A DNA stretch of 46,415 nucleotides from Acidobacteriota bacterium (GCA_029862975.1 JAOTWP010000017.1:1-46415); one strand, 5' to 3'. Shown: positions 1 to 27,928, counted from the first letter of the stretch. Numbers and translations are program-made. The notes: a model not told the origin generated them from the sequence alone.

Positions 1-1
1 G

Positions 2-91
2 GCCCGGCAGGCCCTCGAGAATGCCCTCGCCCTGGAGCCCGACAACGAGGAGTTCGTCCGGGCCCTCGAGTCCCTGACGGCGGACGGCTAG
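2..91 (+). CDS. C-terminal end of a TPR-like protein (partial)
   Basis: Reading frame 2 is open from the window edge to a TAG at 89-91 and encodes the last 29 residues of a protein that begins outside the window. The visible part contains A-L-x-L-x-P-D-N, the usual end of a tetratricopeptide repeat helix pair, followed by a short helix. This suggests a TPR protein used for protein-protein contacts, but 29 residues cannot fix a family. The gene is convergent with the Qng1-like gene, with an 84-base gap that includes a short tandem repeat. Confidence 0.6.
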   Translation, partial: ARQALENALALEPDNEEFVRALESLTADG

Positions 92-140
92 CCGGGCAGG
101 CGCGGGGCCGCCCGGCTCGGCACCTGGCGCCCGGCACCTG

Positions 141-185
141 CCGGCCCAGCACCTGCCGGCTCAGTACATGCCGGCTCAGTACATG
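141..185. repeat. Three tandem 15-bp units at the 3' end of the Qng1-like gene
   Basis: Three adjacent 15-base units lie at 141-155, 156-170 and 171-185. The second and third are identical (CCGGCTCAGTACATG) and the first differs at three positions. A looser version precedes them at about 126-140. The last unit contains the stop codon and the final Met-Tyr codons of the minus-strand Qng1-like gene, so the array looks like slippage duplication of the gene's own 3' end. Confidence 0.75.
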
Positions 186-1303
186 ATCGTGCGGGTCAGA
201 TGGTGCGGCCAGTGCGTGGCGTGATAGCTGCCCCACAAGCGCGCGTCCACCTGCGGGATGATCACCTGGAGCTCCGGCGGCCGCAGGGCGTTGATGTCCT
301 CGGTGAGGAGCGCCGTCGCGTACAGCATGTGCGCCCGGATCTCGATCTCCTCGTCGCTGTCGCGGGGGATGAGCTCGTGCCTCTCGATCCTGGCGTCGAG
401 CTCCGGCGTGTACACCATGATGTCCATGACCCTCATGGCCACGGGCACGATGTAGTCCGCGAACGCCGTCATCGAGCCGATGTCGTCGATGCGGAAGCCG
501 CCGTGCCCCTGGAAGCCGGAGTAGAGCCCCCAGTACGCCAGCTGGGCCAGCTTGTAGAACCGGATCGTCCGGCCGCGGTAGGGGCTCGTGTCGTCGAAGC
601 GCGGGAACTCGTGGACGAGCCGGTCCACGAGACCCTTCCCGCCGTCGAAGAGCCGCGGCGAGCAGGTCGCGAGGAAGTTGTGGAAGAAGCCGTCGTAGCG
701 CTCCGCCAGGACCCTGCCGACCTCGTTGAGGACCGCCAGCTTCTCGTCGAGCATCGGCATCTCGATGTTGCCCGAGAAGATCGCGTCGAGCTCGGAGCGG
801 GTGACCGCGGCCAGGTAGCGGCCGTCGAGGACGGGGATCCCCTCCGCCATGGCCCGTTTCAGGCAGGACGTCATCGCCTGGGAGTCGGACCAGGTCCGGC
901 CCTCGAGCTCGGTCTCGAACTTGACGCCGGTCTCGAAATCGCTGAACGCGCTGTTGATCGTGTTCGAGACCATCGTGAAGTCGATGGCCCGCTCGCGGTC
1001 CGTCGCGGGGTCGAAGTCGAGGCCGAAGCGTGGGAACGGCAGCTCCTCGTAGGCCATCCACCGCGCCACCTCGGCGATCCTGGCGACGTCCGTGCGGACG
1101 TGCCGGGACCCCTCGATGACCGGCCGCAGGCTGTCGAGGACGGGGCTGCCGATGGGGCGCGGCCAGCGGAGGGTCGCCGGGGAGTCGGATTCCCGCATGT
1201 CGCCGGTCCTCTCGCCGGTTCTTTCGTCGATGCCGCGGCCACGAGCGACGATGGGGAGCGCCAGCGCGCTCCCCATCGCCGACAGGAAGGAACGTCGATG
1301 CAC
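176..1303 (-). CDS. Qng1/DUF2419-family queuosine nucleoside glycosylase homologue with a Tat-type signal
   Basis: The 375-residue product resembles the queuosine salvage (Q_salvage, DUF2419, human QNG1) family along most of its length. Landmarks are E-G-I-P-V near 154-158, M-P-M-L-D-E-K with N-E-V-G near 182-196, F-P-R-F and F-Y-K-L-A-Q near 233-254, D-I-G-S-M-T-A-F-A-D-Y at 274-284 (its Asp283 matches the family's catalytic Asp), E-I-E-I-R, and a C-terminal L-W...I-M-Y. Known members cleave queuosine or its 5'-monophosphate to release queuine. The N-terminus V-H-R-R-S-F-L followed by a hydrophobic stretch to about residue 21 looks like a twin-arginine signal, unexpected for a cytosolic family. 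The GTG start shares its G with the TAG stop of the upstream receptor gene (TAGTG), implying translational coupling. An alternative ATG at 1198 would drop the signal. The usual N-F-x-F-W segment is changed here to N-S-A-F-S (117-121), so the substrate may differ. Confidence 0.82.
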   Translation of the reverse strand: MHRRSFLSAMGSALALPIVARGRGIDERTGERTGDMRESDSPATLRWPRPIGSPVLDSLRPVIEGSRHVRTDVARIAEVARWMAYEELPFPRFGLDFDPATDRERAIDFTMVSNTINSAFSDFETGVKFETELEGRTWSDSQAMTSCLKRAMAEGIPVLDGRYLAAVTRSELDAIFSGNIEMPMLDEKLAVLNEVGRVLAERYDGFFHNFLATCSPRLFDGGKGLVDRLVHEFPRFDDTSPYRGRTIRFYKLAQLAYWGLYSGFQGHGGFRIDDIGSMTAFADYIVPVAMRVMDIMVYTPELDARIERHELIPRDSDEEIEIRAHMLYATALLTEDINALRPPELQVIIPQVDARLWGSYHATHWPHHLTRTIMY

Positions 1304-4272
1304 TAGTACGTGAAACGCACGCCCAGCTGGATCGCCCGCGGAGTGCTCCCCGGGGAGACCTGGTCGAGAGTGCGGTAGGGCACCCCCGTGGGACCGATGT
1401 CGCCGGGCTGCGGGTTCCCGTCGAGCTCGGAAGCCACCAGCGACGAGATCGCCGGGTTGGAGTACTTGTTGGCGACGTCGAGGATGTTGAAGATGTCCGC
1501 GATCACCTCGATGTGCCGCCGGTCGCCCAGGCTGAAGTTCTTGCTCACCCGGACGTCCAGCTGGTAGAAGTCCGGCTGCCGCGCCGGGTAGCGCTGGAGC
1601 AGGTACTGGCCGTTGACGACGGGACGGTCGTTGTTGCAGCCGTTGTTGTTGACGCCGTCGCCGTTGGTGTCGTCGATGCTGCACGCCGGGTAGGGCACGC
1701 CGCTGCGGGCGATGAAGAGGCCGCTGACGAGGAACCCTCTCCCCAGCTCCTTGGTCCCGGAGATCTTGAGCTGGTGCGGGATGTCGAGCGCGCTGCGGCC
1801 GTAGTCGATGTCGATGTTGTACGGGTCCTGCGGCCCGAAGTAGGTGTCGGTGTCGCGCTCGCTCGACGCGTTGTCCTTGTTCGACGACCAGGAGTAGTTG
1901 ACGAACCACTGGAAGCCGTCGGCGAAGCGGCGGGTGAGGTTGACCACGGCCTGCTGGTAGAGGCCCCTGCTGAAGCTGCCGTTGGCGAGCGCGCCGGCGA
2001 CGGTGTCGTCGACCGGCCCTCCCAGGATCGTGCGTCCGAACTCGTCCGTTCCGAGGCTCTCGAAGTTGCGATTCCACTGCGTGCTGCTGAAGCCGCCGGT
2101 GCGCAGGTAGTCGGATTCGGCGCGGGCCACGGTCGTCGTGACGGTGTACTTGTCGTTGAGCGCCACCTCGAGCGCGACCGTGGTGTTCATCACGCGGGGA
2201 TTGCGCAGGGACGGGTCGTCGTAGGTCGTGTCGAAGGGGCCCTGGGGCACCAGCGGGTCGTCCGGGTCGATGGCGTCGGGCCACAGGTTGGGATACCCGC
2301 CCGGCGGGATGCACGCGGGGTTGAAGAAGCAGAAGGTCACCGCGGTGTTGCCCGATCCCGTGCCGAGGAAGATCGTGGGCGTCTGGGCGTAGTAGAGGCC
2401 CCAGGAGCCGCGAAGGACCGCCGGCCTGCCGCCCATGTCGAAGGAGTAGGCGGCTCCCAGCCGCGGGCCGAACTGGTCGAAATCGTCCGGCGGATCCTGC
2501 GGCGGCGTGCCGAACCGGGTGCCGGAGCCCACGCCGAGGGGGACCGACTCACCGGCGATGGGCGAGCGGGCGGTCGGGTTGTCGGTGCCGTCCCAGCGCA
2601 GCCCGTAGTTGACGGTCAGGTTCGGCTTGACCTGCCACTTGTCCTGCACGTAGAGGCCGTAGCCCGTCTGGTAGACGCGCTCCGTGCGGATCGCGGCCTC
2701 GGCGTAGGGCTCGCCGAGACCGAAGCCCTGGATGAATCCGAAGGGCGTGCCGGCCTGGAAGTCCTCGAGCGTGAAGAACGAGTAGGAGCCCGCCGACCAG
2801 CCGAAGAAGCGGTTGTTGCGGATCGAGTACTGGTTGATGTCGGCGCCGAACTTGACGTCGTGATCGCCGAACGCGACCTGGTAGTTCTCCTGGAACGTGA
2901 TCTTCTCGTTGTCGCCCTGGATGGGCAGGAAGAAGCGCTGGCCGAAGGTGCCGGTGTCGAGGATGTTGATCTCGGGCAGGTTGCTGTTGGGCTCGCGCGG
3001 GCGGATCTGATCCGAGTACATGACCTTGAGCTCGTTGGCGCCGCGGCCGCTCTTCGACACCTTGTTCCAGGTGAAGATCGTGTTGGTGCCCGAGTTCTCG
3101 AACCTCTCGGTGTTGCCGAACGACGCCTGGATCTGGTTCTGGCCGCGGCCGCCGGTGAAGCCGTTCGTCTTGTTCTCGGTGTAGAAGCTGCGGACGCTGA
3201 ACCGGTTCGACGGGTTGGGCAGCGAGTCCCACTTGGCGAGGATCGAGAGCAGGTCCTGGGACTGCTCGTTGGCCCCCTCGAGGGAGGCGAGGTCGCTGAT
3301 GCCAAGCTCCGGAGCCGATACGCCGCTGACGTCGCGGGAGAACTTGGTGACCAGCGGCCCCGTGCGCTCCGACACGTCGAAGGCCACGAAGTAATAGTGC
3401 TTGTCGCGCTTGATCGGCCCGCCCAGGGCGGCGCCGATCTGGTTCTGGCTGTCGATGTTCGGGGGCGTGCCCAGCCAGTCGTCCTCCGTGAGGCTGTCGT
3501 TGCGGTGGTACCAGTGGGCGCTGCCCTGGAGCTGGTTGGTGCCCGACTTGGTCACGACGTTGAGCAGGCCGCCGGTCGAGCGCCCGAACTCGGGGGCGAA
3601 GCCGTTGGTGACGACCTGGAACTCCTGGACCGCTTCGATCGGGATGACGGAGTTCTTGGTCTCGAGGGAGCCGAAGAACTCGCCGAAGAAGTTGTCGCGG
3701 CCGTCGGCGCCGTCGATGGAGAGCCCCGAGTAGTCGCTCTGCTGGCCGCCGAGGCGCAGGCCGCCGCGCAGGCCGGGCGTGACCTGGGCGGCCGGGCTCA
3801 GCAGGGCGAGGTCGCGAAAGTCGCGACCCAGGAGCGGCAGGTTCTCGATCGCCTGCTCGCTGATCAGCTGGCTGACGCCGGCCGAAGCCACGTCGATCGG
3901 GGCCGCCGAGGCCTGGACGGTGATCGTCTCGGTCGCCATCTCGAGCGTCAGGGTGAAGTCGAACGTCAACGAGGCGCCGACGTTGACCTCGATGTCCGCC
4001 ACCTCGCTGGAGAATCCGCTGAGCTCGACCTGCATGCTGTAGCGGCCGGCGGGAATCTGGATCAGCCGGTAGGTGCCGCTTTCGTTGGTCTCCGCCGAGC
4101 GCGAGAAGCCCGTCTCGGGATTCTGCAGCGTGACGGTGGCGCCCGGAATCGAGCCTCCCGTCTCGTCGGTGACGACGCCGCGGACCTGGCCGGCGTCGAG
4201 GGTCTGTCCGCTGGCGATCTGCGCGCAGAGTAGGGCGCCGCCAAGAACCGCAACCAGTCGCGTGTTTCTCAT
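1303..4272 (-). CDS. Oar-type TonB-dependent outer-membrane receptor
   Basis: The product (989 residues) starts with a Sec signal peptide (about 1-22, cleavage after A-S-G), then a carboxypeptidase-regulatory-like beta-sandwich (about 28-110, G-V-V-T-D-E-T-G-G and S-G-T-Y-R). A plug domain follows (about 135-245, with S-I-D-G-A-D-G and V-T-N-G-F-A-P-E-F-G-R-S-T-G-G), then a long barrel region ending in Phe-Thr-Tyr, the aromatic C-terminus expected of outer-membrane barrels. Acidobacterial genomes carry many such receptors, and the substrate cannot be read from sequence. A purine-rich Shine-Dalgarno (GGGGGAGGAAG) precedes the ATG. It lies between an exported nucleoside hydrolase (82 bases upstream) and the Qng1-like gene (overlapping by one base), so a nucleoside-type ligand is a reasonable inference, though Oar-type receptors are also reported to take up proteins or oligosaccharides. 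Confidence 0.92.
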   Translation of the reverse strand: MRNTRLVAVLGGALLCAQIASGQTLDAGQVRGVVTDETGGSIPGATVTLQNPETGFSRSAETNESGTYRLIQIPAGRYSMQVELSGFSSEVADIEVNVGASLTFDFTLTLEMATETITVQASAAPIDVASAGVSQLISEQAIENLPLLGRDFRDLALLSPAAQVTPGLRGGLRLGGQQSDYSGLSIDGADGRDNFFGEFFGSLETKNSVIPIEAVQEFQVVTNGFAPEFGRSTGGLLNVVTKSGTNQLQGSAHWYHRNDSLTEDDWLGTPPNIDSQNQIGAALGGPIKRDKHYYFVAFDVSERTGPLVTKFSRDVSGVSAPELGISDLASLEGANEQSQDLLSILAKWDSLPNPSNRFSVRSFYTENKTNGFTGGRGQNQIQASFGNTERFENSGTNTIFTWNKVSKSGRGANELKVMYSDQIRPREPNSNLPEINILDTGTFGQRFFLPIQGDNEKITFQENYQVAFGDHDVKFGADINQYSIRNNRFFGWSAGSYSFFTLEDFQAGTPFGFIQGFGLGEPYAEAAIRTERVYQTGYGLYVQDKWQVKPNLTVNYGLRWDGTDNPTARSPIAGESVPLGVGSGTRFGTPPQDPPDDFDQFGPRLGAAYSFDMGGRPAVLRGSWGLYYAQTPTIFLGTGSGNTAVTFCFFNPACIPPGGYPNLWPDAIDPDDPLVPQGPFDTTYDDPSLRNPRVMNTTVALEVALNDKYTVTTTVARAESDYLRTGGFSSTQWNRNFESLGTDEFGRTILGGPVDDTVAGALANGSFSRGLYQQAVVNLTRRFADGFQWFVNYSWSSNKDNASSERDTDTYFGPQDPYNIDIDYGRSALDIPHQLKISGTKELGRGFLVSGLFIARSGVPYPACSIDDTNGDGVNNNGCNNDRPVVNGQYLLQRYPARQPDFYQLDVRVSKNFSLGDRRHIEVIADIFNILDVANKYSNPAISSLVASELDGNPQPGDIGPTGVPYRTLDQVSPGSTPRAIQLGVRFTY

Positions 4273-4316
4273 CCGTCTTCCTCCCCCGGTTGAAGGGCTG
4301 TCCGTTCTGTGCGCAG

Positions 4317-4346
4317 AGTCTAGCGCAGCGCCGGACGCGCCGGCAA
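4317..4346 (-). promoter_or_regulatory. Candidate sigma70 promoter for the TonB receptor/Qng1-like pair
   Basis: On the minus strand, TTGCCG (4346-4341) and TAGACT (4322-4317) are separated by 18 bases and lie about 45 bases before the receptor ATG, between the nucleoside hydrolase and receptor genes. The same -10 hexamer occurs in the metK and rpsT promoter candidates of this window. It would allow receptor and glycosylase to be transcribed apart from the hydrolase. Confidence 0.5.
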
Positions 4347-4354
4347 ATCCGCCG

Positions 4355-5527
4355 CTATCGATTCCTCAAACGCTCTATGAAGAGCGCCAGAAAGCGCTCG
4401 GCGTCCACCTCGACGGCCACGTGAGCGTTCGGCTCGACCCGATCGATCCCGGTCATCTTGAGCCGGTCCCCCTCGGGCTCGTTGCGCTCGACGGCGTTGT
4501 GCCGGTTGCCCACCGTCGCCCCGCGGGTGTGCTCACCGCGCGTCTCGACGTCGATTCGCATGTGCCTCGTGCGGACGAACGAAGGGTCCAAGACCACTCC
4601 CACGGCCAGGGGGTCGTGCATCGGCGTGCCGTCGGCGCCGAAGTCGGCGGCCAGCTCGACGAGGAAGGCCATGACCTCGGTCGCGAAATCGTTGAGCGTG
4701 CCGTGGGTTCGGGCGAGCCGCTCGAGGTGCTGGCGCCCGAAGTTGGTCTTGTGGGTCACGTCGAGACCCACCATCGTCACCTTCCAGCCGGCCTGGAAAA
4801 CGAGCTCGGCCGCCTCGGGATCGTTGAAGATGTTGGCCTCAGCCACGGCCGTCACGTTGCCCTCGGTGATCGAGCCGCCCATGATCACGACCTCCTTGAC
4901 GAGGGGCACGATGGTGGGGTCCTTGAGCAGGGCGAGGGCGATGTTGGTGAGCGGACCGACGGGAACCAGGGTGATCTCTCCCGGCATCGCGTGCACCAGG
5001 TCGATGATGAGGTCGGGCGCGAAGCGCGCGTCGGCCGCGCAGCCCGGCGCGGGAAGCTCGATGCCGGCCAGGCCGTTCTCGCCGTGGACGAACTCGGCCG
5101 TGATCAGCTTCTGGGCCAGAGGGCGCCGGGCGCCGCCGGCGACCGGGACGTCGCAGCGCCCGGCGAGAGAGACGAGCCGCAGGGCGTTGTCCAGGGCCTG
5201 ATCGGCCGTCACGTTGCCGGGAACGACCGTGAAGGCGCGCACGTCCAGCTCGGGCGAGCTCAGCGCCAGCAGGATCGCCATCGCGTCGTCCGTGCCCGGG
5301 TCGGTGTCGATGATGACGGCCCGGCGCTCGTTCGGCGCCGCCGGCCGAGGCTCCGTCTGGGCGGCGAGCGGCGAGGCGGCGAGGAGGAGCACCAAGAGGA
5401 GGCGCTGCCACGAGAGGCCGGCGCGGGATTCGCCGGCCCGGGCGCAAGGCGGCGGGGCCGGCTTCGGCGACCGGGCCGCACGCAGCTCGAGCGAATCGAG
5501 GGTCCCCTGGCGGGTGAGTGGAGGCAT
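4355..5527 (-). CDS. Exported inosine-uridine-type nucleoside hydrolase (1)
   Basis: A member of the calcium-dependent IUNH fold, which hydrolyses the N-glycosidic bond of ribonucleosides. The metal motif D-T-D-P-G-T-D-D lies at 74-81, with V-G-P-L-T-N-I-A, M-G-G-S, E-A-N-x-F-N-D-P-E-A-A and the M-H-D-P segment (His304, Asp305) that supplies the leaving-group acid and a calcium ligand. All core residues are present. Residues 39-57 form a hydrophobic segment ending A-A-Q, read as a signal peptide or anchor. It is preceded by an unusual 38-residue basic and proline-rich stretch with no better start codon nearby. The ATG at 5527 has no clear Shine-Dalgarno, so the start is uncertain. It is first in the minus-strand unit with the TonB receptor and Qng1-like gene, and divergent (88-base gap) from the FG-GAP protein. 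Confidence 0.9.
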   Translation of the reverse strand: MPPLTRQGTLDSLELRAARSPKPAPPPCARAGESRAGLSWQRLLLVLLLAASPLAAQTEPRPAAPNERRAVIIDTDPGTDDAMAILLALSSPELDVRAFTVVPGNVTADQALDNALRLVSLAGRCDVPVAGGARRPLAQKLITAEFVHGENGLAGIELPAPGCAADARFAPDLIIDLVHAMPGEITLVPVGPLTNIALALLKDPTIVPLVKEVVIMGGSITEGNVTAVAEANIFNDPEAAELVFQAGWKVTMVGLDVTHKTNFGRQHLERLARTHGTLNDFATEVMAFLVELAADFGADGTPMHDPLAVGVVLDPSFVRTRHMRIDVETRGEHTRGATVGNRHNAVERNEPEGDRLKMTGIDRVEPNAHVAVEVDAERFLALFIERLRNR

Positions 5528-5615
5528 TCGACGGTTTCTGGGGCGCCGGAGCGAAAACGACTCTACGACCGGCCGGAGGTCGAGTCAAGAAGCGGGCTGG
5601 GCTACGCTACGGGCC

Positions 5616-7352
5616 ATGCGCTTCAGGCCCGGTCCGCGGCGTCGCGTCGCCCGTCGCCTTCCCTTGGCGCCCCTGCTGCTGGCGCTGGGCGTGGGACCGC
5701 CCGTCCCGGCGCCGACCACGGGCCGCGGCGCTTCGGGCGCGGACCTCGGGGGGCAGGACTTCGCCGTCCGCTTCGAGGACCGCTCGCGGCAGGTCGGCAT
5801 CGACTTCCGGCACGAGCGCGCCGCGTCGTGGGAGAAGCTCTACGTCGAGACCATGGGCGCGGGTGTCGGCTGGCTCGACTACGACCAGGACGGCTGGCTC
5901 GACGCCTTCTTCGTCAACAGCGGGGCGACGCCGAACTTTGCACCGCCCGAGCCACCGCAGCCGGCCCTCTACCGCAATCTCGGGGACGGCACCTTCGTCG
6001 ACGTGACTCGCGAGAGCGGCTTGTCCGTGGGGCCGGGGTTCTTCTTCTTCGGGGTCGCCGTGGGCGACTACGACGATGACGGCTATCCCGATCTCTACGT
6101 GTCCGGCTACCGCCGCTCGCTGCTCTATCGCAACACCGGAGAGGGCGCCTTCGAGGAGGTGACCGCCCGGGCCGGCGTCGGCAACGACGGGGCCTGGGCG
6201 ACGGCGGCCGGCTGGTTCGACTACGACCGCGACGGCGCTCTCGACCTGCTCGTCACGGGCTACGTGCAGTACGACATCGACCGCAACGTCGTCTGTGGCG
6301 ATCCGACACCCGAGCGCCGCGCCTACTGCCACCCGGACAGTTTCCCGGGGACGTCGCCCAGGCTCTATCGCAACGACGGCGACGGCTCGTTCACCGACGT
6401 CACCGTGGCCGCGGGGCTGCTCAACCCCGACGGCAAGAGTCTCGCCGTGGCGCTCGCCGATCTCGACGGCGACGGCTGGCCCGACGTCTTCATCGCCAAC
6501 GACACCCAGCGCAACTTCGTCTACTTCAACAACGGCGACGGGACCTTCGAGGACGCGAGCTATTTCTCGGGGGCGGGCTTCAGCGAGGACGGCAAGACCG
6601 AGGCGGGCATGAGCGCCGGCGCCGCGGACATCGACGACGACGGCGACATCGACCTCTACGTGAGCCACCTGGACGCCGAGCTCAATCGCCTGTACACGAA
6701 CGAGGGGGACCGGATCTTCGTCGATTCCACGATCACCTCCGGCCTCGGCGCGACGAACATCATGAACAGCAGCTTCGGTGCCCAGTTCCTCGACGCCGAC
6801 AACGACGGCCGTCGCGACCTGCTCGTGGCGAACGGCCACATCATGGACAACATCGCGATCTACCACGCCGGCGTGACCTACGCGGAGGTCAAGAAGCTCT
6901 ACCGCAACGTCGGCGCGGGGCGGTTCGTCGACGTAAGCGGGAGCCAGCCGGCCGCTTTCCTCGAGCCACGAGTCGGCCGCGGCCTGGCGGTGGGCGACTA
7001 CGACAATGACGGGTTCCCGGACTTCGTGGTCAACAACAACGGCGAGCCGGGACAGCTCTTCAGGAACTCGGGGGTCGCCGGCAACCGCTGGCTCGGCGTG
7101 CAGCTGCGCGGCGTCGAGAGCTCGCGCGACGGCACGGGGGCCGCGCTGGCGCTCAGGGCGGGGACCCTCGCCAGCTACGACCAGGCGATCGGCGGCCGCA
7201 GCTACTGCTCGGCGAAGGACCCCCGCATCCTCTTCGGCCTCGCGGAGAGGCAGGCGGCCGACGCCCTCGACGTCCGCTGGCCGAGCGGCCGGCGCCAGCG
7301 CTTCGGCCCCCTGCCCGCCGGCCGCTACGTAACCCTAGTCGAGGTCCCCTAG
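5616..7352 (+). CDS. Secreted FG-GAP repeat protein with ASPIC/UnbV domain (CRTAC1-like)
   Basis: A 578-residue protein with a basic N-terminus and hydrophobic signal (about 10-40). Multiple FG-GAP/VCBS-type repeats follow, each with a calcium-binding loop of the D-x-D-x-D-G type (for example W-L-D-Y-D-Q-D-G, L-A-D-L-D-G-D-G-W-P-D, I-D-D-D-G-D-I-D), together suggesting a beta-propeller. The last ~90 residues (N-R-W-L-G-V-Q-L-R-G onwards, ending V-R-W-P-S-G) match the ASPIC/UnbV domain found at the end of CRTAC1-like proteins. The family is extracellular or cell-surface, and no enzymatic role is established. The start at ATG 5616 puts the signal at the N-terminus; the frame is open further upstream. 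It is divergent from the nucleoside hydrolase at 5527, and its place in the locus is unexplained. Confidence 0.88.
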   Translation: MRFRPGPRRRVARRLPLAPLLLALGVGPPVPAPTTGRGASGADLGGQDFAVRFEDRSRQVGIDFRHERAASWEKLYVETMGAGVGWLDYDQDGWLDAFFVNSGATPNFAPPEPPQPALYRNLGDGTFVDVTRESGLSVGPGFFFFGVAVGDYDDDGYPDLYVSGYRRSLLYRNTGEGAFEEVTARAGVGNDGAWATAAGWFDYDRDGALDLLVTGYVQYDIDRNVVCGDPTPERRAYCHPDSFPGTSPRLYRNDGDGSFTDVTVAAGLLNPDGKSLAVALADLDGDGWPDVFIANDTQRNFVYFNNGDGTFEDASYFSGAGFSEDGKTEAGMSAGAADIDDDGDIDLYVSHLDAELNRLYTNEGDRIFVDSTITSGLGATNIMNSSFGAQFLDADNDGRRDLLVANGHIMDNIAIYHAGVTYAEVKKLYRNVGAGRFVDVSGSQPAAFLEPRVGRGLAVGDYDNDGFPDFVVNNNGEPGQLFRNSGVAGNRWLGVQLRGVESSRDGTGAALALRAGTLASYDQAIGGRSYCSAKDPRILFGLAERQAADALDVRWPSGRRQRFGPLPAGRYVTLVEVP

Positions 7353-7462
7353 AGCGCGGATCCGGTTCAGCAGCGTCTTGCCTCGGGGTGAAGACCGACG
7401 AGCTTCGGAGGTTGGCGCGGGACCCCGGCGGGCTGGTTGCGACTCGGTGGGTTGGAGGTCGT

Positions 7463-7546
7463 GAAAAGAAGCCGGGTAGGGAAGAGAACGGGGGCCTCGC
7501 TGCGAGCTCCCCTGTTCTCTTCCTTACCCGGATCTTTCTTCTTTTC
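7463..7546. repeat. Long imperfect hairpin in the 329-base gap before the amidohydrolase gene
   Basis: The arm at 7463-7494 (GAAAAGAA then GCCGGGTAGGGAAGAGAACG) is the inverse of 7508-7546 (CCCCTGTTCTCTTCC, TTACCCGG, then a pyrimidine run ending CTTCTTTTC), with a 13-base loop and a small bulge. The arm core GGGTAGGG-AAGAGAAC resembles the arms of the repeats at 42.7, 43.9, 44.2 and 46.3 kb, so it is probably a divergent member of the same family. It could act as a terminator for the upstream FG-GAP gene. The rest of 7353-7681 shows no gene. A TACAGT at 7615-7620 could be a -10 box but lacks a convincing -35. Confidence 0.75.
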
Positions 7547-7681
7547 CTTAGCCGGATTCCACTCCTGGTCCGCGCGCGCCAGGCCGATCGAGCCGGAGCC
7601 CGAGGGTGGGGTGGTACAGTCTCGGCGCGAGCGAGCTCGAGCTGAACGGGATGGAGTGCCCCGTGGAGGAGAGGATCCGGG

Positions 7682-9073
7682 ATGCAGGCTAGGAGGATGG
7701 TCGGTGCGCTCTTCCTGGTCGCCCTGGCTGCCGCCGGCCCGGCGGTGGGGGAGCCCCGCCACGCGGATCTGCTGATCGTCAACGGGCACCTGGTCACGAT
7801 GGACGGCGAGTTCCGCGTCATCGAGGACGGGACCGTCGCCGTCGAGGGCTCGCGGATCGTCGGAGTCGGCGGCCCCGAGCTCGCCGGGCTCTTCGCCGCC
7901 GAGGAGACGATCGACGCCGGCGGCGACCTCGTGATGCCGGGCATGGTGAACACCCACACCCATGCGTCGATGACCATCTTCCGCGGCCTGGGAGACGACG
8001 TTCCCGACCGGCTCCGGCGCTTCATCTTCCCGCTGGAGGCGGCGGTCGTGGACGCCGACCACGTGTTCAAGGGGGCGCTGCTGGGCGCCGTCGAGATGGT
8101 GCTCGGCGGCGCGACGACGTTCGTCGACATGTACTACTTCGAGGACGCCGTCGCCCGCGCGGCCCGGGCGGTGGGGGTGCGCGCCGTCCTGGGGGAGACG
8201 ATCATCGGGTTCCCGGCCCCGGACGCCGAGATTCCCTACGGCGGGCTGGACTACGCCCGGCGGTTCATCGCCGAGTTCGCGGGCGACGAGCTGGTGACCC
8301 CCGCGCTGGCCCCGCACGCGCCGTACACGATGGACCGCGAGCACCTCGAGCTCGTCGCCGCGGCAGCCCGCGAGCTCGACGTCCCGGTGCTCGTGCACCT
8401 CGCCGAGACGCGGGCGGAGATCGAGCAGATCGAGCGCGAGCACGGACTGAGCCCGGTGGAGTACCTGGACGCCGTCGGGCTGCTGAGCGACCGGCTCGTC
8501 GCCGCGCACTGCATCTTCGTGGACGCGGCGGACATCGAGCTGCTGCGGGAGCGCGGCGTGGGCGTGAGCCACAACATCGTCTCCAACGTCAAGGCCGGCA
8601 AGGGGGTGGCGCCGGTGCTCGCCATGCGCGCCGCCGGGCTGGACGTGGGGCTCGGAACCGACGGCCCGATGAGCGGCAACACGCTGGACATGATGGGGCT
8701 GCTCGGCTACACGGCGAAGCTCCACAAGCTGGCGCAGCTGGATCGCAGCGTGATGCCGGCGCGAGACGTCGTGGAGATGGCCACGATCGGCGGGGCGCGG
8801 GCCATCGACATGGAGGATCGCATCGGCTCCCTGGAGGTGGGGAAGCTGGCCGATCTGCTGATCGTCGACGTGGACTCCGTCCACATGATCCCCATGTACG
8901 ACGTCTACTCGGCGCTCGTCTACGCGGCGGGCGCCCAGGACGTCCGAACGGTGATCGTCCACGGCCGGCAGGTGGTGCGCGACCGCGAGCTCCTGACTGT
9001 GGACGTGGAGCGTCTCAAGGCCGACGTGCGGGAGCTGACGGACGAGATCGCCCGCCAGGCGGCCAGGCTCTAG
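7682..9073 (+). CDS. Exported amidohydrolase of the MTA/SAH (adenosine-type) deaminase family
   Basis: The 463-residue metal-dependent hydrolase carries the subtype III amidohydrolase ligands: T-H-T-H (His92, His94), H-L-A-E-T (His239), A-A-H-C (His276) and L-G-T-D-G-P (Asp327), with S-N-V-K-A-G-K-G-V-A-P between. This pattern is typical of 5-methylthioadenosine/S-adenosylhomocysteine deaminase (MtaD), 5'-deoxyadenosine deaminase, guanine deaminase and chlorohydrolases, so the exact base cannot be assigned. Unlike the usual cytosolic enzymes it begins with a signal peptide (about 1-23, V-A-L-A-A-A-G-P-A-V-G). A Shine-Dalgarno (GGAGGAGAGG) precedes the ATG. It is followed after 36 bases by two exported nucleoside hydrolases, consistent with periplasmic deamination of adenine-type nucleosides feeding glycosidic cleavage. 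Confidence 0.88.
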   Translation: MQARRMVGALFLVALAAAGPAVGEPRHADLLIVNGHLVTMDGEFRVIEDGTVAVEGSRIVGVGGPELAGLFAAEETIDAGGDLVMPGMVNTHTHASMTIFRGLGDDVPDRLRRFIFPLEAAVVDADHVFKGALLGAVEMVLGGATTFVDMYYFEDAVARAARAVGVRAVLGETIIGFPAPDAEIPYGGLDYARRFIAEFAGDELVTPALAPHAPYTMDREHLELVAAAARELDVPVLVHLAETRAEIEQIEREHGLSPVEYLDAVGLLSDRLVAAHCIFVDAADIELLRERGVGVSHNIVSNVKAGKGVAPVLAMRAAGLDVGLGTDGPMSGNTLDMMGLLGYTAKLHKLAQLDRSVMPARDVVEMATIGGARAIDMEDRIGSLEVGKLADLLIVDVDSVHMIPMYDVYSALVYAAGAQDVRTVIVHGRQVVRDRELLTVDVERLKADVRELTDEIARQAARL

Positions 9074-9109
9074 GGGACGCGAGGGCAACGACGTGAAGGA
9101 GAGGAGCCC

Positions 9110-10198
9110 ATGCTCGACCACCGACTCATCGCCGGCTGGATGGCCGCGTTGACGATCGCGGGCGGATCCGCGGCCGGCGCCCAGCCGCCGCCCGAGAAGA
9201 TCAAGGTCATCGTCGACCAGGACGCCCGCGGACCGTGCAGCACGGACATGCAGTCGGTGCTGATGTTCGTACAGTCGCCCCGGGTGGAGGTTCTCGGAAT
9301 CACCATCGTCAGCGGCGACCTGTGGATGGACCAGGAGACCCTGCATACCCTGCGCGCCCTCGAGATCGCCGGCCGCACCGACATCCCGGTCTACCGCGGC
9401 GCCGTCTTCCCGATCCTCAACAGCAAGGAGGAGACCGAGCGCTGGGAGATGCAGTACGGCCGTCACCTCTACAAGGGCGCCTGGAACGACGGCATGCCGG
9501 GTCCGTACGAGCGGGTGCCGCTGCCCGAGGGCGAGCCCACGACCAAGCCGACGGCCGGGCACGCCGCGAACTTCATCGTGGACGCCGTCAACGCGCACCC
9601 CGGCGAGGTCGTGCTGTGGGGAGCCGGGCCGCTCACCAACATCGCCCTGGCCCTGATGCTCGATCCGGAGCTGCCCGCGAAGGCCAAGGAGCTGGTGCTG
9701 ATGGGCGGCGGCATCGACCGCGCCGAGTACCGCAAGGAGTTCAACTGGCTGTGGGATCCCGAGGCCGCCCGCAAGGTGCTGCGCGCGCCCTGGAAGAAGG
9801 TGACGATCACGCCGGTCGACATCTCCGTCAAGACGCGGCACGGCCCCGAGCTCGTCGCGAGAATCGGCAGCTCCCCCAACCCCGTAGCGCAGTACATCAA
9901 GGAGTTCCACCGCACCTCGCCGCCCGACGCCGACCCCGACTGGCAGCCCTGGATCTTCATGTGGGACGAGATCAGCGCCGCGGCGGTGCTCGATCCGACG
10001 ATCATCACCGAGCAGCGCGAGATGTACGTCGACGTCGACATCGACCACGGCATCAACTACGGCTACACCCTCGCCTGGGAGCTCGATCAGCAGCACCCGC
10101 CCGACGCGCGCAAGGCCTGGGTCCAGTTCGACCTCGACCTCGACCGCTTCTACGACCTCTACGCCGATCTCATGATGCGCCGGGCGTCGCCCGACTGA
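9110..10198 (+). CDS. Exported nucleoside-hydrolase-like protein (2) with divergent active site
   Basis: A 362-residue IUNH-fold protein with a signal peptide (1-24, ending A-A-G-A-Q). The fold markers G-A-G-P-L-T-N-I-A-L (171-180), M-G-G-G (198-201), F-N-W-L-W-D-P-E-A-A (211-220) and P-V-D-I-S are present, but two catalytic elements are changed. The N-terminal D-x-D-P-G-x-D-D motif reads D-Q-D-A-R-G-P-C-S-T-D (36-46), and the C-terminal H-D pair is W-D (Trp285, Asp286). Asp36, Asp38 and Asp286 could still bind calcium, but the usual acid His is missing, so it may use another substrate or mechanism. The Shine-Dalgarno is GAAGGAGAGGAG. The gene lies 36 bases after the amidohydrolase and 11 bases before a third nucleoside hydrolase, in one apparent operon. 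Confidence 0.85.
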   Translation: MLDHRLIAGWMAALTIAGGSAAGAQPPPEKIKVIVDQDARGPCSTDMQSVLMFVQSPRVEVLGITIVSGDLWMDQETLHTLRALEIAGRTDIPVYRGAVFPILNSKEETERWEMQYGRHLYKGAWNDGMPGPYERVPLPEGEPTTKPTAGHAANFIVDAVNAHPGEVVLWGAGPLTNIALALMLDPELPAKAKELVLMGGGIDRAEYRKEFNWLWDPEAARKVLRAPWKKVTITPVDISVKTRHGPELVARIGSSPNPVAQYIKEFHRTSPPDADPDWQPWIFMWDEISAAAVLDPTIITEQREMYVDVDIDHGINYGYTLAWELDQQHPPDARKAWVQFDLDLDRFYDLYADLMMRRASPD

Positions 10199-10209
10199 GC
10201 ACGTTCGCC

Positions 10210-11349
10210 ATGCTGCGCCGATCGACACGGGTTCCGGGCGTGGAGAGCCTCGCGACGCCCATCGTGCGGCGGGCGTTTCTCAGGCGCGCGGGCCTGCTGC
10301 TGGCGGCGGCCGGCGCTCCGCCGGCCCTGTTCGGACAGGCGGGCGGCGCGCGGCGCGGCAGGGTGATTCTCGACGTCGACATCGGCATCGACGACGCCTT
10401 CGCCGTGCTGTTGGCGCACTTCTCGCCGACGATCGATCTCCTCGGCATCACGACCGCCTTCGGCAACACGACCCTCGAGAACTCGACCCGCAACGCCCTC
10501 TACATCAAGGAGCGCTTCGGCGTCGAGGCGCAGGTCTACCGCGGCGCGGCCGAGCCGCTGCATCACCCCAGGTCGGAGCCGCCGGTCTTCGTGCACGGCG
10601 AGGACGGGCTGGGCGACGTCGAGGGGCGCATCGCGCCCTCGATCCGCGAAGCCGATCTGTCCGCCCCCGAGTTCATCGCGCGGGCGATCCTGGGAGACCC
10701 CGGGGAGGTCACGGTCGTCACCCTGGGTCCGGCCACCAACCTGATGCTGGCCCGCCTGCTCGAGCCCGCGATCGTCGACCATGTCCGCGACGTCATCGTC
10801 ATGGGCGGCGCCGTCGGGTTCGCCGGCGAGCGCGGCAACATCACGACCGTCGCCGAGGCCAACGCCTGGCAGGACCCGCACGCGATGGCCGATCTCTTCC
10901 GGTTTCCGTGGCCCGTGACGATGGTCGGGCTCGACGTGACGTACGCCGCGGACGCGAGCATGGACGCGGCCTTCATCGAGGAGCTCCGGACTCGAGCCGG
11001 CGAGGCCGGAGCGTTCCTGGAGCGCATCAACCGCCAGTACCGCAGGTTCTACCGGAGCAGTCGCGGAGTCGACGTCACCTTCCAGCACGACTCGATCGCC
11101 GTCGCCTACGCGATCGCGCCGTCGCTGTTCGAGGTCGAGCGTGGCAAGGTCAAGGTGCTGACCGACGGCGTGGCGCGGGGGCAGACGGTGTTCTGTCCGG
11201 AAGGCCACCACACGTTCGGCGATCCGGAATGGGCCGGGCTGCCGACGCATCGGGTCTGCCGCGGCATCGACGGGCCCGGCTTTCTCGACCTCTACGCCCG
11301 AGCCCTGATCGGGGGCGGCGCGCGAGGCGGCGGCCGGCGCGCCGAATGA
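10210..11349 (+). CDS. Tat-exported nucleoside hydrolase (3)
   Basis: A 379-residue IUNH-family hydrolase. The calcium motif is D-V-D-I-G-I-D-D (55-62, with Ile replacing the usual Pro), followed by T-A-F-G-N-T-T, L-G-P-A-T-N-L, M-G-G-A-V, E-A-N-A-W-Q-D-P and an intact H-D (His293, Asp294). The catalytic set therefore looks complete, in contrast to its neighbour. The N-terminus has R-R-A-F-L-R-R-A-G (20-28) followed by a hydrophobic Leu/Ala run and A-L-F-G-Q, a probable twin-arginine signal. The ATG at 10210 is used here; a GTG at 10240 would also keep the signal. Its stop overlaps the next gene's start (ATGA at 11346-11349), so the CAT-like gene is probably translationally coupled. Confidence 0.88.
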   Translation: MLRRSTRVPGVESLATPIVRRAFLRRAGLLLAAAGAPPALFGQAGGARRGRVILDVDIGIDDAFAVLLAHFSPTIDLLGITTAFGNTTLENSTRNALYIKERFGVEAQVYRGAAEPLHHPRSEPPVFVHGEDGLGDVEGRIAPSIREADLSAPEFIARAILGDPGEVTVVTLGPATNLMLARLLEPAIVDHVRDVIVMGGAVGFAGERGNITTVAEANAWQDPHAMADLFRFPWPVTMVGLDVTYAADASMDAAFIEELRTRAGEAGAFLERINRQYRRFYRSSRGVDVTFQHDSIAVAYAIAPSLFEVERGKVKVLTDGVARGQTVFCPEGHHTFGDPEWAGLPTHRVCRGIDGPGFLDLYARALIGGGARGGGRRAE

Positions 11350-12014
11350 GCTCCGCCGAGCCCCGTCGCCTCGAGATCTCGCGCTGGGCGCGGCGTCGCC
11401 ACTTCGAGTTCTTCAAGGGCTTCGAGCAGCCCTTCTTCAACGTCTGCACGGACCTCGACGTCGGCGCCCTCGTCGCGCGCACGAGAGGGGAGGGACGCTC
11501 CTTCTTCCTGGCGGTGCTCTACCTGAGCCTGCGGGCCGCCAACGAGGTGCCGGAGCTCAAGGTCCGGATCCGCGGCGACGAGGTCGTCGAGCACCCGGTC
11601 GTCCACGGTGGCTCGACCGTGATGCGGGAGGACGAGACGTTCGGCTTCGGCTACTTCGACTACGACCCGCGCTTCGACGCGTTCGAGCGTACCGGTCGCG
11701 CCGTGCTCGAAGCGGCCCGGCGCTCCCGGACGCTCGACGACCAGCCCGAGAGAGACGACCTGATCTACTACTCCGTGCTGCCTTGGATCGCCTTCACCAG
11801 CTTCGCCCACGCCCGCCGCTGCCCGGCGAAAGGCTCCATCCCCCGGATCGTCCTCGGCAAGCGCCACGAGAGGAGAGCAGGGGAGTGGCGGCTGGCGATC
11901 TCGGTCGAAGTCCACCACGCCCTCGTCGACGGCCTGCACGTCGCTCGCTTTCTGGACGGCTTTCAGGGGCTGTTGCACGAGCCCGAGCTCCTCTGGGCGG
12001 CGCCACCTGTTTGA
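11346..12014 (+). CDS. Chloramphenicol-acetyltransferase-fold acyltransferase
   Basis: The 222-residue product matches the size and landmarks of CatA-family trimers: R-R-x-H-F-E-F-F near the N-terminus, the central Y-L-S-L-R-A-A-N-E-V-P-E-L-K-V-R, and the catalytic H-H-A-L-V-D-G (His191, Asp195) near the C-terminus. CatA enzymes transfer an acetyl group from acetyl-CoA, and many genomic homologues do not act on chloramphenicol. No signal peptide is seen, so it is probably cytosolic. Its ATG overlaps the stop of the preceding nucleoside hydrolase, tying it to the nucleoside locus, perhaps to acylate a product or a nucleoside-type antibiotic (speculative). Its last two codons and stop lie inside the large palindrome. 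Confidence 0.85.
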   Translation: MSSAEPRRLEISRWARRRHFEFFKGFEQPFFNVCTDLDVGALVARTRGEGRSFFLAVLYLSLRAANEVPELKVRIRGDEVVEHPVVHGGSTVMREDETFGFGYFDYDPRFDAFERTGRAVLEAARRSRTLDDQPERDDLIYYSVLPWIAFTSFAHARRCPAKGSIPRIVLGKRHERRAGEWRLAISVEVHHALVDGLHVARFLDGFQGLLHEPELLWAAPPV

Positions 12015-12297
12015 CGGATTTTGGCCCGGTCGCGGGTCCCCCTCAGCTCCCACGCCCGGTGCACCTCTTGAGCCGGGCGAAGGGCGCTTTCCAAGTAGGG
12101 CGGTGAACGGCGTCCCCGCGCTGACCGTCTCCGGCCGGTGGGCCGTGGTGAGACTCTGAGCAGGGAAATACCCGGTCGGTCGAGCACAGGACCTTCACCG
12201 CCCTACCTGGAAAGCGCCCTCTGCATGGCTGGAGCCGTTCACCGGTCGTGGGAGCTGAGGGGACCCGCGACCGGGGCAGAATCCGTCAAACAGGTGT
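12003..12297. repeat. About 295-bp imperfect palindrome between convergent genes
   Basis: The outer arms 12005-12064 and 12236-12296 are inverted copies of about 60 bases (shared core CACCTGTTTGACGGATT and CGCGGGTCCCC-CTCAGCTCCCACG) with a few mismatches. The inner arms 12079-12110 and 12191-12222 are also inverted (GGGCGCTTTCCAAGTAGGGC against GCCCTACCTGGAAAGCGCCC), leaving a spacer of about 80 bases with no gene. The inner arm resembles the hairpin repeats near parAB. The stops of the plus-strand CAT-like gene (12012-12014) and the minus-strand dehydrogenase (12288-12286) both lie in the outer arms, so both proteins end Pro-Val-stop from the same sequence. It may act as a bidirectional terminator. 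Confidence 0.9.
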
Positions 12298-13272
12298 CCC
12301 GATCTCCAGGTCGGTTTCGCCATCTCCAGGATGGAGAAGCACCTTGAGCGTTCCCGGCCGCGCCGCGTGCTGGATCGCCTGGAGGGCGTCGGCGAGCGGA
12401 TAGCGGGCCGCGACGAGGTCTTCGACCTCGACCTTCTTTTCGGCGAGCAGCTTCAGGGCCGGCGGGAAGGGACCGCAGCGGGAGCCGACGAGCTGGAGCT
12501 CGTCGACGACGAGAGGTGCGGCGTCGAGGGTCAGGCGGTCGGCGTAGGTGCTCTTCATGACGAGCGTGCCTTGCGGGCGCAGGGCTCGGCGGGCCAGCTC
12601 GAAGCCTTCCGGGTTGCCGGTGCACTCGACGGCGACGTCGTAGGCGCGCGGCTCCAGGGCCTCGGCCGTCAGGCAGGTGACCCCTTCGGGAGCCAGCTCG
12701 GCCGCCGCCTCCGGGCGGCGGCTCAGAAGGGTGAGCTCGCAGCCGGTCAGCGCCAGGGTGCGGGCGATCAGCAGACCGAGCTTGCCGGCGCCGGCGACGA
12801 GGACGCGCCGGCCGGGCGCGACGGCGATCTGCTCCTGGATGCGCAGGGCCGCGGCGAGCGGCTCGGTGAACGTCGCGGCGTCGTCCGTGACGCCGTCCGG
12901 CACGGCGTGGAGGTTGGCGGCGGGCAGGGCGAGGTAGTCCGCGAGCGCGCCGTCGCGGCCGGCGATGCCCAGCACGGTCCGGTTCTCGCAGTGGGTCGGC
13001 GCTCTGTCGCGGCAGAAGCGGCAGGCGCCGCAGACGGCGTTGATCTCGCCCACGACCCGGCGTCCGGTGAGCGCCTCGGGGCCGCGCTCCACGACGCCCA
13101 CGAACTCGTGTCCGAGGATGCCGCGGTAGGGGTAGTAGCCGCGCACCAGCTCCAGGTCGGTGTTGCAGATGCCCGCCCGCAGCACCCTGACGAGGGCCTC
13201 GGCGGCCGGTGGCTCGGGGCGGGGACGGTCGCGCAGGGAAAGCTCGCCGTCCTCGAGCCAGAGCGCGCGCAT
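12286..13272 (-). CDS. Zinc-type MDR alcohol dehydrogenase
   Basis: A 328-residue medium-chain dehydrogenase/reductase. It shows the catalytic zinc region (C-N-T-D followed by G-H-E-F-V-G near residues 34-55), a four-cysteine structural zinc lobe (C-G-A-C-x-x-C-x-x-x-x-x-x-x-C near 80-95), and a Rossmann NAD(P) site (V-L-V-A-G-A-G-K-L-G). The family oxidises alcohols or sugars such as threonine or sorbitol, and the substrate is not recognisable. The ATG at 13272 starts the conserved M-R-A-L segment; earlier in-frame codons encode non-conserved sequence. It is convergent with the CAT-like gene, its 3' end lies in the large palindrome, and it is divergent from the CPXCG gene. Confidence 0.88.
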   Translation of the reverse strand: MRALWLEDGELSLRDRPRPEPPAAEALVRVLRAGICNTDLELVRGYYPYRGILGHEFVGVVERGPEALTGRRVVGEINAVCGACRFCRDRAPTHCENRTVLGIAGRDGALADYLALPAANLHAVPDGVTDDAATFTEPLAAALRIQEQIAVAPGRRVLVAGAGKLGLLIARTLALTGCELTLLSRRPEAAAELAPEGVTCLTAEALEPRAYDVAVECTGNPEGFELARRALRPQGTLVMKSTYADRLTLDAAPLVVDELQLVGSRCGPFPPALKLLAEKKVEVEDLVAARYPLADALQAIQHAARPGTLKVLLHPGDGETDLEIGTPV

Positions 13273-13362
13273 GCGGCATTCTATGCCGCCGTGCTTCCGG
13301 GTCGGTGCGGCGCCGACGGCGGGGGACCGGGCAGGAGGCCGGAGGGCGGAGACCCGGATAGC

Positions 13363-13572
13363 ATGGCCTCGAGAACGGCGATGACAGGCGGCGACTCCAC
13401 CTTGCACTCCATCGTCTGTCCCTACTGCGGGGAGCAGGTCGAGATCGTCCTCGAAGAGGACCTCGACGGGGAGATGATCTGGGACTGCGAGGTCTGCTGC
13501 CGCCCGTGGGAGCTGACCGTTCGCGGCCGCGGCGCGGAGCGCGAGGTGGCCGTTCGGACCCTGGAAGAGTAG
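13363..13572 (+). CDS. CPXCG-motif cysteine-rich mini-protein
   Basis: A 69-residue protein with C-P-Y-C-G near residue 19 and C-E-V-C-C near 41-45, a four-cysteine arrangement suggesting a zinc ribbon. This matches the small 'CPXCG motif-containing cysteine-rich protein' family, whose function is unknown. Acidic segments (V-L-E-E-D-L-D-G-E) lie between the pairs. The first ATG (13363) is used; an ATG at 13381 is equally compatible with the family's short N-terminus. It is divergent from the dehydrogenase and ends 9 bases from the convergent decarboxylase stop. Confidence 0.8.
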   Translation: MASRTAMTGGDSTLHSIVCPYCGEQVEIVLEEDLDGEMIWDCEVCCRPWELTVRGRGAEREVAVRTLEE

Positions 13573-19236: not shown

Positions 19237-19803
19237 TCAGTTGCCGGTGATGACGAAGTGGGCGCGGCGATTCTTCGCCCAGCAGCTCTCGTACGACTCG
19301 GTGCACTGCGGGCGCTCCTCGCCGTAGCTGACGCTCGTCAGCCGGCCGCCGGCGATCCCGAGCGAGCCCAGGTAGCCGGACGCGGCGTTGGCCCGGCGGT
19401 CGCCGAGGGCCAGGTTGTAGGCGTTGGTGCCGCGCTCGTCGCAATGCCCCTCGACGGTGAAGACGAGGTTCGGATGCTCGCGCATGAACGCCGCGTTGGC
19501 GGCCAGCCGATCGGTCGCGTCCGACCTCAGGTCCGACTTGTCGAAGTCGAAATAGACGTCGCCGAGCAGGCCGTTGGCGCGGGCGTACTCGTTGAGCGCG
19601 CCGAGCTCGCCGGTCTCCCAGTTCGGGGTGTCGTCCATCACGGTGGGCGGCGCAGGTGCCGGCTCGACGACCGTCGGCATGGTGGGCGCCGGCGGCGGCG
19701 GGGGCGCGGGCTCCGGGATTACGGGCGGCTTCTTGGCGCAACCGGAGACGAGTACCACGGCAATCAGGGCCGCCCCAGCGGCCGGGATCCACTTCGAGCT
19801 CAT
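19237..19803 (-). CDS. pal: Peptidoglycan-associated lipoprotein Pal
   Basis: The 188-residue protein has a lipobox (L-V-S-G-C near residue 22), a Pro-rich linker (about 25-60) and an OmpA-like peptidoglycan-binding domain with V-Y-F-D-F-D-K-S-D-L and V-E-G-H-C-D-E-R-G-T-N-A-Y-N-L-A-L-G-D-R-R-A. Pal anchors the outer membrane to peptidoglycan and works with TolB. The ATG at 19803 follows a GAAGGAGAAG Shine-Dalgarno; the frame is open for 32 codons upstream but that part is not signal-like. Confidence 0.96.
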   Translation of the reverse strand: MSSKWIPAAGAALIAVVLVSGCAKKPPVIPEPAPPPPPAPTMPTVVEPAPAPPTVMDDTPNWETGELGALNEYARANGLLGDVYFDFDKSDLRSDATDRLAANAAFMREHPNLVFTVEGHCDERGTNAYNLALGDRRANAASGYLGSLGIAGGRLTSVSYGEERPQCTESYESCWAKNRRAHFVITGN

Positions 19804-19869
19804 TCGCTTCTCCTTCTTCGACGGCGAGTGCCTGTCGATCGACGTTCGGACATCCAGCTGACCGCGCGT

Positions 19870-19899
19870 ACTGTAACAGAACGTCGAGGCGGCGAGCAA
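19870..19899 (-). promoter_or_regulatory. Candidate internal promoter for pal-cpoB
   Basis: On the minus strand TTGCTC (19899-19894) and TACAGT (19875-19870) have an 18-base spacer inside the 160-base tolB-pal gap, the only large gap in the tol cluster. It would let pal and cpoB be expressed separately from tolQRAB. Confidence 0.5.
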
Positions 19900-19963
19900 G
19901 CTGTAAGTGACGGCGATCGTTGGGTTTTCGAGCCCGCCGCCGATTTGACGCCAGGCGTCCTGT

Positions 19964-21337: not shown

Positions 21338-21356
21338 CGGGGTCTCCTCGACGGCT

Positions 21357-22061: not shown

Positions 22062-22067
22062 CGCGGC

Positions 22068-22493: not shown

Positions 22494-22536
22494 GCTCCCG
22501 CTCCTCCCGTCCCCTGTTCCCGATTCCCGGCGATGC

Positions 22537-26649: not shown

Positions 26650-26679
26650 TTGACCGCCCGCGCGGCGCTTGGGTAGACT
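26650..26679 (+). promoter_or_regulatory. Candidate sigma70 promoter of metK-ahcY
   Basis: TTGACC (26650-26655) and TAGACT (26674-26679) are 18 bases apart, right after the YjjX-like stop and about 67 bases before the metK ATG. The same hexamers precede rpsT. I looked for SAM or SAH riboswitch cores in the leader and saw none. Confidence 0.65.
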
Positions 26680-26746
26680 GCCGGGACTCGCCGCCCGGCG
26701 ATCCGACTCGCCGCAGACCAGCCTGGACCCAAGGACGGAGCCCCCG

Positions 26747-27928
<1,182 letters not shown>

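Follow-up and report, generated by a model that had tools for sequence, protein, structure and literature searches.

Among described systems, the Rus locus of Bacteroides thetaiotaomicron (BT2803-2809) is a PUL-type system for ribose scavenging with the carrier RusT, in which nucleosides are drawn as a source (Glowacki 2020, as cited in PMC12596196). The Rus locus holds a nucleoside hydrolase and ribokinases, and it uses a SusC/SusD pair and a regulator of its own. In Clostridioides difficile, the QueK-QueL-QueT system couples an ECF importer to the queuine lyase QueL and to the hydrolase QueK, which releases queuine from queuosine (Q) after import; it includes neither a receptor nor a ribose pathway (PMC11570991). 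For Acidobacteriota, a UPS carrier gene (PF07168) has been reported to adjoin qng1 in the neighbourhood of A0A2V9U0M9, and UPS genes cluster with queK-like genes (PMC11130926). That study frames the UPS-qng1 pair as a question of Q-precursor transport, and its main text mentions neither Tat, the periplasm and TonB nor ribokinase. Two Actinomycetota loci found in this analysis (L048 and L055) combine Qng1 with a nucleoside hydrolase and a ribokinase, plus what we take, from the translations, to be uridine phosphorylase and DERA; these operons have a BMP-type ABC importer and signal-less enzymes, and represent a cytoplasmic version of the chemistry discussed here.

Here we describe a locus from an Acidobacteriota bacterium (GCA_029862975.1), located on a stretch of 46,415 nucleotides (JAOTWP010000017.1) that was analysed whole and is referred to as the window. 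The locus is probably one conserved gene island for nucleoside degradation outside the cytoplasm, a reading for which there are no biochemical, transcript or localisation data. It shares with Rus a ribokinase and a nucleoside hydrolase that appears to be exported, and differs from it in that no SusC/SusD pair was found; none of the locus proteins scanned matched the SusD family. In place of that pair the island has an Oar-type receptor without SusD, as well as six or more putatively exported hydrolases, deaminases, a Qng1 protein with a Tat-like signal and a ureide-permease-like carrier. By analogy, and without a homology test, it likely works like Rus without being a member of that group. An earlier note, made from the sequence alone, had stated that no described system combines these parts; this was too strong, as Rus is similar and the UPS-qng1 pair is published (PMC11130926). 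The novel element is likely a receptor-coupled Qng1 that is Tat-exported, export being inferred; Qng1 frees queuine, a rare modified base of RNA, and is in other settings an enzyme of cytosolic type.

Gene content of the locus

The window is the entire contig C175, whose left end falls just past the Qng1 gene (Table 1). Its minus strand (5527-176) encodes the nucleoside hydrolase NH1 (PF01156), the Oar-type receptor and Qng1 (PF10343), and the divergent side (5616-11349) encodes a secreted FG-GAP/ASPIC-UnbV protein, an MtaD-like amidohydrolase and the hydrolases NH2 and NH3. This gene content is shown directly. Pfam confirms the families, and the gene list and coordinates of the earlier note held; it had missed the FG-GAP/ASPIC-UnbV gene on the plus strand inside its span, whose position is kept in relatives. 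The reading frame at the window start matches TPR families and ends in RQALENALALEPDNEEFVRALESLTADG and a stop codon. NH3 starts at either ATG 10210 or GTG 10264, and the true start of NH1 likely falls within the listed ORF. To the right of 11349 are genes for a CAT-like acetyltransferase, a zinc dehydrogenase and a decarboxylase, none of which was found in the conserved block, and no Rfam RNA, riboswitches included, reached the gathering score in window positions 1-13500.

Table 1. Features of the locus in the window and their continuation on contig C106 (L025)
Feature	Position	Strand	Support or remark
TPRsec, C-terminal end of secreted TPR-repeat protein	1..92	+	cut by contig end
Qng1 / Q_salvage (DUF2419), Tat-like signal, GTG start	176..1303	-	PF10343 193.3 bits
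Oar-type TonB-dependent-receptor-like outer-membrane protein, Sec-like signal	1303..4272	-	PF13620 + PF25183
NH1, canonical nucleoside hydrolase, Sec-like signal	4355..5527	-	PF01156 326 bits
Secreted FG-GAP/ASPIC-UnbV protein, first gene of divergent operon	5616..7352	+	PF13517, PF07593
MtaD-like amidohydrolase (adenosine/MTA/SAH-deaminase type), Sec-like signal	7682..9073	+	PF01979 (Amidohydro_1) 227 bits
NH2, divergent nucleoside hydrolase, Sec-like signal	9110..10198	+	PF01156 194 bits
NH3, canonical nucleoside hydrolase, Tat-like signal RRAFLRRAGLLLAAAG	about 10210..11349	+	PF01156 264 bits
TPRsec continuation	L025 1079-2788	-	TPR families + overlap with window

The Qng1 match spans positions 3-285 of the 285 in PF10343 (cut-off 25 bits), and its solved homologues are 7u07/7uk3 (E 4e-50). 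Residues K251, D283, Y284, D353, W357 and T372 are invariant in nine proteins and identical in 7u07/7uk3; which of them are catalytic is not shown by this comparison, and action of the island enzyme on queuosine compounds is inferred without enzyme data. Qng1 begins with the Tat-like stretch VHRRSFLSAMGSALALPIVARG, whose Tat motif is kept in orthologues, and its GTG start overlaps the stop codon of the receptor gene (TAGTG). The pair is equally close in L079, where the receptor match ends at 5327 and the Qng1 match begins at 5330, and is separated by 3 bases in the relative G006. Both proteins are apparently made from the same mRNA, a likely inference for which there are no transcript data.

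The receptor scores above cut-off with PF13620 (74.7 bits) and PF25183 (229 bits), consistent with a CarboxypepD_reg domain and a beta barrel, and below it with the generic TonB barrel PF00593 (24.1 bits versus a cut-off of 27). A TonB-box-like stretch (ETITV) is present ahead of the plug. The own genome contains only about four Oar-type PF25183 receptors, and orthologues of this one, 72-74% identical, lie directly before Qng1 in G006, G015, G057 and G065. Because the receptor sequence matched no solved structure, its substrate is a guess, and TonB dependence, while possible, is likewise inferred.

NH1 (IIDTDPGTDD) and NH3 (LDVDIGIDD) contain the IUNH motif DxDxGxDD, the canonical calcium/ribose motif, and NH1 has RihA-like solved homologues (E 3e-65). 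NH2 lacks the canonical IUNH active site, with both DxDxGxDD and HD absent; all 12 members of its subfamily in a 12-sequence alignment instead have DQDxxGPxxTD, with WDE replacing HD. Despite these divergent motifs, the predicted model of NH2 (AF2 pLDDT 84) has a nucleoside-hydrolase fold: the top 50 Foldseek hits are without exception nucleoside hydrolases, and 6ba0 is matched at E 1e-22. The hydrolases NHb and NHc, encoded further along the locus, are related to this subfamily (DQDxxGPxxTD-like). Because the motifs of NH2, NHb and NHc diverge from the canonical ones, it is conceivable that their sugar or base preference differs, an inference only. As a side observation, the divergent subfamily (DQDxxGPxxTD-like, WDE) is plentiful in such islands (window 9110-10198; L025 2604-3662 and 4743-5792; L032-L046). 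The best solved homologue of the window amidohydrolase is the MTA/SAH deaminase 4f0r (E 1.8e-88). We call it MtaD-like only, because the MtaD NCBIfam equivalog was not reached (best 399.5 bits versus a cut-off of 540); deaminase models were also below cut-off. The activities of all island enzymes are predictions inferred from sequence.

The island likely continues from C175 onto contig C106, as inferred from gene order in relatives and from an overlap in which window bases 92-1 are 98.9% identical to C106 bases 1078-1169. The order on C106, which matches that in relatives, is TPR protein, NHb, cytidine-deaminase (CDA)-like lipoprotein, NHc, ribokinase, NHd, UPS carrier and a second MtaD-like amidohydrolase, MtaD2. 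Three more hydrolases, predicted from their signal-like N-termini to be exported, are thereby added, which brings the island of the own genome to six; a seventh is encoded outside it. The ribokinase exceeds its equivalog cut-off (TIGR02152, 333 versus 299.65 bits), and the inner-membrane carrier matches Ureide_permease PF07168 and Sugar_transport PF06800 (ureide-permease/RhaT-type). The CDA-like lipoprotein has a cytidine-deaminase match in four of four orthologues (best E 2e-8) and HGE and CGDC motifs, with scores below the curated cut-off for the members printed (TIGR01354, 24.9-27.8 versus 113.65 bits). An AlphaFold model of it, built on two sequences only, was discarded (pLDDT 45). The locus yielded no identifiable nuclease or nucleotidase. 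Coordinates outside the window are mainly those of tblastn matches, and the simple gene caller chose wrong-strand ORFs in places.

Two further features of C106 were observed. The lipoprotein of ~340 aa at L025 3670-4761 has orthologues in L020, L029 and L030, and its own-genome copy has no Pfam match; it could represent an undescribed family of exported deaminases. At L025 1-1077, directly after the TPR stop and where C106 and the window diverge, there is a transposase gene, which we take from its translation to be IS481-like; the element probably varies between strains, its insertion having interrupted the assembly.

Conservation and distribution of the island

The arrangement of NH3-NH2-MtaD-ASPIC diverging from NH1-receptor-Qng1 is kept in G006 (a Thermoanaerobaculia MAG, CALZIK010000178.1), G057 (7 contigs) and G065 (WTGL01000057.1), and partly in G015, whose copy is at a contig edge. 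The same genomes share, again only partly in G015, the downstream series of TPR, NHb, CDA-like lipoprotein, NHc, ribokinase, NHd, UPS and MtaD2. This order and its conservation are shown directly. Across two families of the class, island proteins are 66-88% identical in most genes, as compared to about 58-64% for TGT between families; the high island identity might reflect horizontal transfer or strong constraint, and GC content did not decide between them. Of the 139 class genomes, only 10 contain Q_salvage. The island is all-or-none among relatives: IUNH genes number 7-8 in holders and 0-3 in relatives without Qng1, with no nucleoside hydrolase in the same-genus genome G001 (97% complete, without Qng1). 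In G057, six of eight nucleoside hydrolases are encoded within 18 kb of 4.4 Mb.

Related loci occur in other Acidobacteriota. L032, L033 and L096 have ASPIC and NH1-receptor-Qng1, followed by NH2-type hydrolases, TPR, kinase and UPS, at about 45-65% identity (receptors only about 43%). Shorter arrangements are kinase-UPS-NH1-Qng1-NH2 (L034 and L038), NH1-UPS-Qng1 (L043) and kinase-UPS-Qng1 (L044), and the published A0A2V9U0M9 neighbourhood is likely the same kind of locus as L043, L034 and L038. The arrangements listed here define a core of Qng1, nucleoside hydrolase, UPS carrier and ribokinase, joined in many cases by the receptor. A neighbouring nucleoside hydrolase was not found at three loci with Tat-type Qng1 (L035, on a short contig, L041 and L097). 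The earlier note had held that its reading would be refuted by a lack of conserved clustering in relatives; this did not materialise, as the order is conserved across two families, and the recurrence of the core in further Acidobacteriota supports the clustering it expected.

Putative export signals

Signal-like N-termini are shown by the orthologues: essentially every enzyme, receptor and lipoprotein with a complete start has a hydrophobic signal-like stretch, and the ribokinase orthologues, which serve as an internal control, do not. The Tat motif of NH3 is kept in its G006 and L029 orthologues. Actual export of the island enzymes is likely, being inferred from these N-termini, and the other outcome that the earlier note said would refute its reading, negative signals for most of the enzymes, was not met as far as can be read from sequence.

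Genome contigs yielded 21 Qng1 loci on the Acidobacteriota branch, 17 of them with a Tat-type N-terminus (RRxFL + hydrophobic), and the pattern recurs although Qng1 sequence and length otherwise diverge. None of the 52 Actinomycetota/Chloroflexota Qng1 loci has a credible one. A regular expression also called Tat at L044 and L062, and both calls were rejected as false. In the Qng1 tree the Acidobacteriota sequences form a single group with support of 100/100, most members having Tat, the loci without clear Tat being L031 (start unclear), L040, L042 and L044. Three of these four have a CNT nucleoside importer and a pyrimidine-nucleoside phosphorylase (PYNP). A BMP-type ABC nucleoside importer is present at 26 of the 52 Actinomycetota/Chloroflexota loci and at none of the 17 Tat-Qng1 loci. 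Signal-less Qng1 (Actinomycetota, some Acidobacteriaceae) often adjoins inner-membrane nucleoside importers. L034 and L038 have Tat-Qng1 together with CNT and PYNP; one locus can therefore combine a periplasmic with a cytosolic route, and the contrast is a trend rather than a rule. As a trend, it supports the extracytoplasmic reading, for which there are no localisation data.

Queuosine, queuine and TGT

The TGT of the own genome and of four checked relatives (G001, G006, G015 and G057) contains the motif GGVSVGE, in which the valine is reported to block queuine (PMC11570991). This pocket valine of GGxxVGE, whose loss would mark a queuine-inserting TGT, was not lost in the own genome or the relatives. 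Because the TGTs look preQ1-type, direct reuse of freed queuine is doubtful. QueA is present in the holders G006, G015, G057 and G065. In the own genome TGT is present, QueA and QPTR were not found, and QueC-like hits were weak and partial; the draft is 93% complete, so missing genes are weak evidence. We considered direct queuine auxotrophy to explain the presence of Qng1; the preQ1-type motifs of the TGTs weaken this idea, as does the finding that most holders have QueA.

As an observation on the whole order, TGT occurs in all genomes (G000, G001, G006, G015, G057 and others) and QueA in nearly all. In most of them no QueC match was convincing, and QueA without QueC suggests dependence on outside preQ0/preQ1, whose salvage in this order is possible. 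The QPTR transporter was not found in G000 or G015, was weakly detected in G006, and was found in G001, G057 and G065. A tested UPS relative transported preQ0/preQ1 and not Q, and its transport of queuine required a very high concentration (PMC11130926). This fits a carrier whose cargo is the free base left by extracytoplasmic cleavage; with Qng1 on the outside, there would be no need for Q to pass the inner membrane, which would account for a UPS gene beside qng1 whose product does not transport Q.

Proposed pathway

In the reading we prefer, the Oar-type receptor would admit nucleosides, or else nucleotides and small RNA fragments, across the outer membrane. The putative exported deaminases (two MtaD-like enzymes and one cytidine-deaminase-like lipoprotein) would deaminate nucleosides in the periplasm, where the six IUNH hydrolases would split them to give ribose and the free base. 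Qng1, predicted to be exported folded by Tat, would cleave queuosine or queuosine 5'-phosphate, compounds that ordinary hydrolases may not accept. Queuine must be freed from the tRNA hydrolysis products Q, Q-3'MP and Q-5'MP (PMC11130926), and a periplasmic Qng1 could act directly on 5'-monophosphates formed when RNA is degraded, with no kinase needed. The ureide-permease/RhaT-type carrier, whose cargo is inferred, would take up ribose and/or bases, and the ribokinase would phosphorylate ribose for entry into the pentose phosphate pathway. Nucleoside capture followed by periplasmic cleavage, as the earlier note had proposed, is supported, with capture by the receptor remaining an inference; the C106 half (ribokinase, carrier, CDA-like protein and three hydrolases) is what one would expect if ribose and bases are set free outside the cytoplasm.

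On a bolder reading, which could equally well prove right or wrong, many Acidobacteriota have moved Qng1 chemistry to the periplasm in a receptor-coupled, Tat-exported form that uses nucleotides without a kinase, and the UPS-type carrier moves only the freed base. The substrate in that reading would be queuosine or queuosine 5'-phosphate from environmental RNA, a part for which the balance is no firmer. If the pathway is correct, extracytoplasmic nucleoside scavenging evolved in Acidobacteriota as a full pathway island to which a modified-nucleoside glycosylase was recruited by export, and the published UPS-qng1 carrier without Q transport has a reason. Release of free queuine and ribose would be testable, and the released queuine could be shared with neighbours.

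Alternative explanations

The island could instead be devoted chiefly to the Q base, with queuine released in the periplasm, imported by the carrier and inserted into tRNA by TGT. This is favoured by the overlap of the Qng1 and receptor genes, by a TGT-positive own genome in which QueA and QPTR are absent and QueC-like hits poor, by the publication of a UPS gene beside qng1 as a Q-precursor carrier and by the queuosine hydrolase QueK (both PMC11130926). QueK is itself of the IUNH type. Against it stand the valine-containing TGT motif, the presence of QueA in four holders, and the six nucleoside hydrolases, ribokinase and deaminases, which would be superfluous for a micronutrient; genes missing from an incomplete draft weigh little. 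We therefore regard dedicated queuine salvage as unlikely.

Still less plausible are two readings that deny a periplasmic pathway altogether. The genes could be chance neighbours, independent secreted enzymes in a genome rich in exported hydrolases, and no role in nucleoside metabolism is obvious for the FG-GAP/ASPIC and TPR neighbours; secreted amidohydrolases and Oar-type proteins are numerous in Acidobacteriota. Very unlikely in our view, this is countered by the order kept between two families at identities above that of TGT, by the concentration of G057 hydrolases in 18 kb, and by the core's recurrence in loci of much lower identity. Equally improbable is that the enzymes are cytoplasmic and their N-terminal stretches mis-called starts. 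The starts of Qng1, NH1 and NH3 are GTG or ambiguous, and the Qng1 signal is short and without a clear AxA site. However, RRxFL + hydrophobic is present in 17 Acidobacteriota loci and absent in 52 Actinomycetota/Chloroflexota relatives, the TAGTG overlap puts the Qng1 start before the Tat motif, and the receptor, lipoprotein and TPR starts are signal-like where that of the kinase is not.

Other genes in the window

Outside the island, window positions 19237-23259 hold a Tol-type group in which ExbD/TolR, TolQ/ExbB and a PD40 beta-propeller protein are confirmed by Pfam; TolA and Pal are assigned to neighbouring genes by reading the sequence alone. At 26669-29233, genes for S-adenosylmethionine synthetase and then S-adenosylhomocysteine hydrolase are too distant to be linked with the island. 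The exported protein encoded at 29912-32368 is large and contains both FG-GAP and thrombospondin type 3 repeats.
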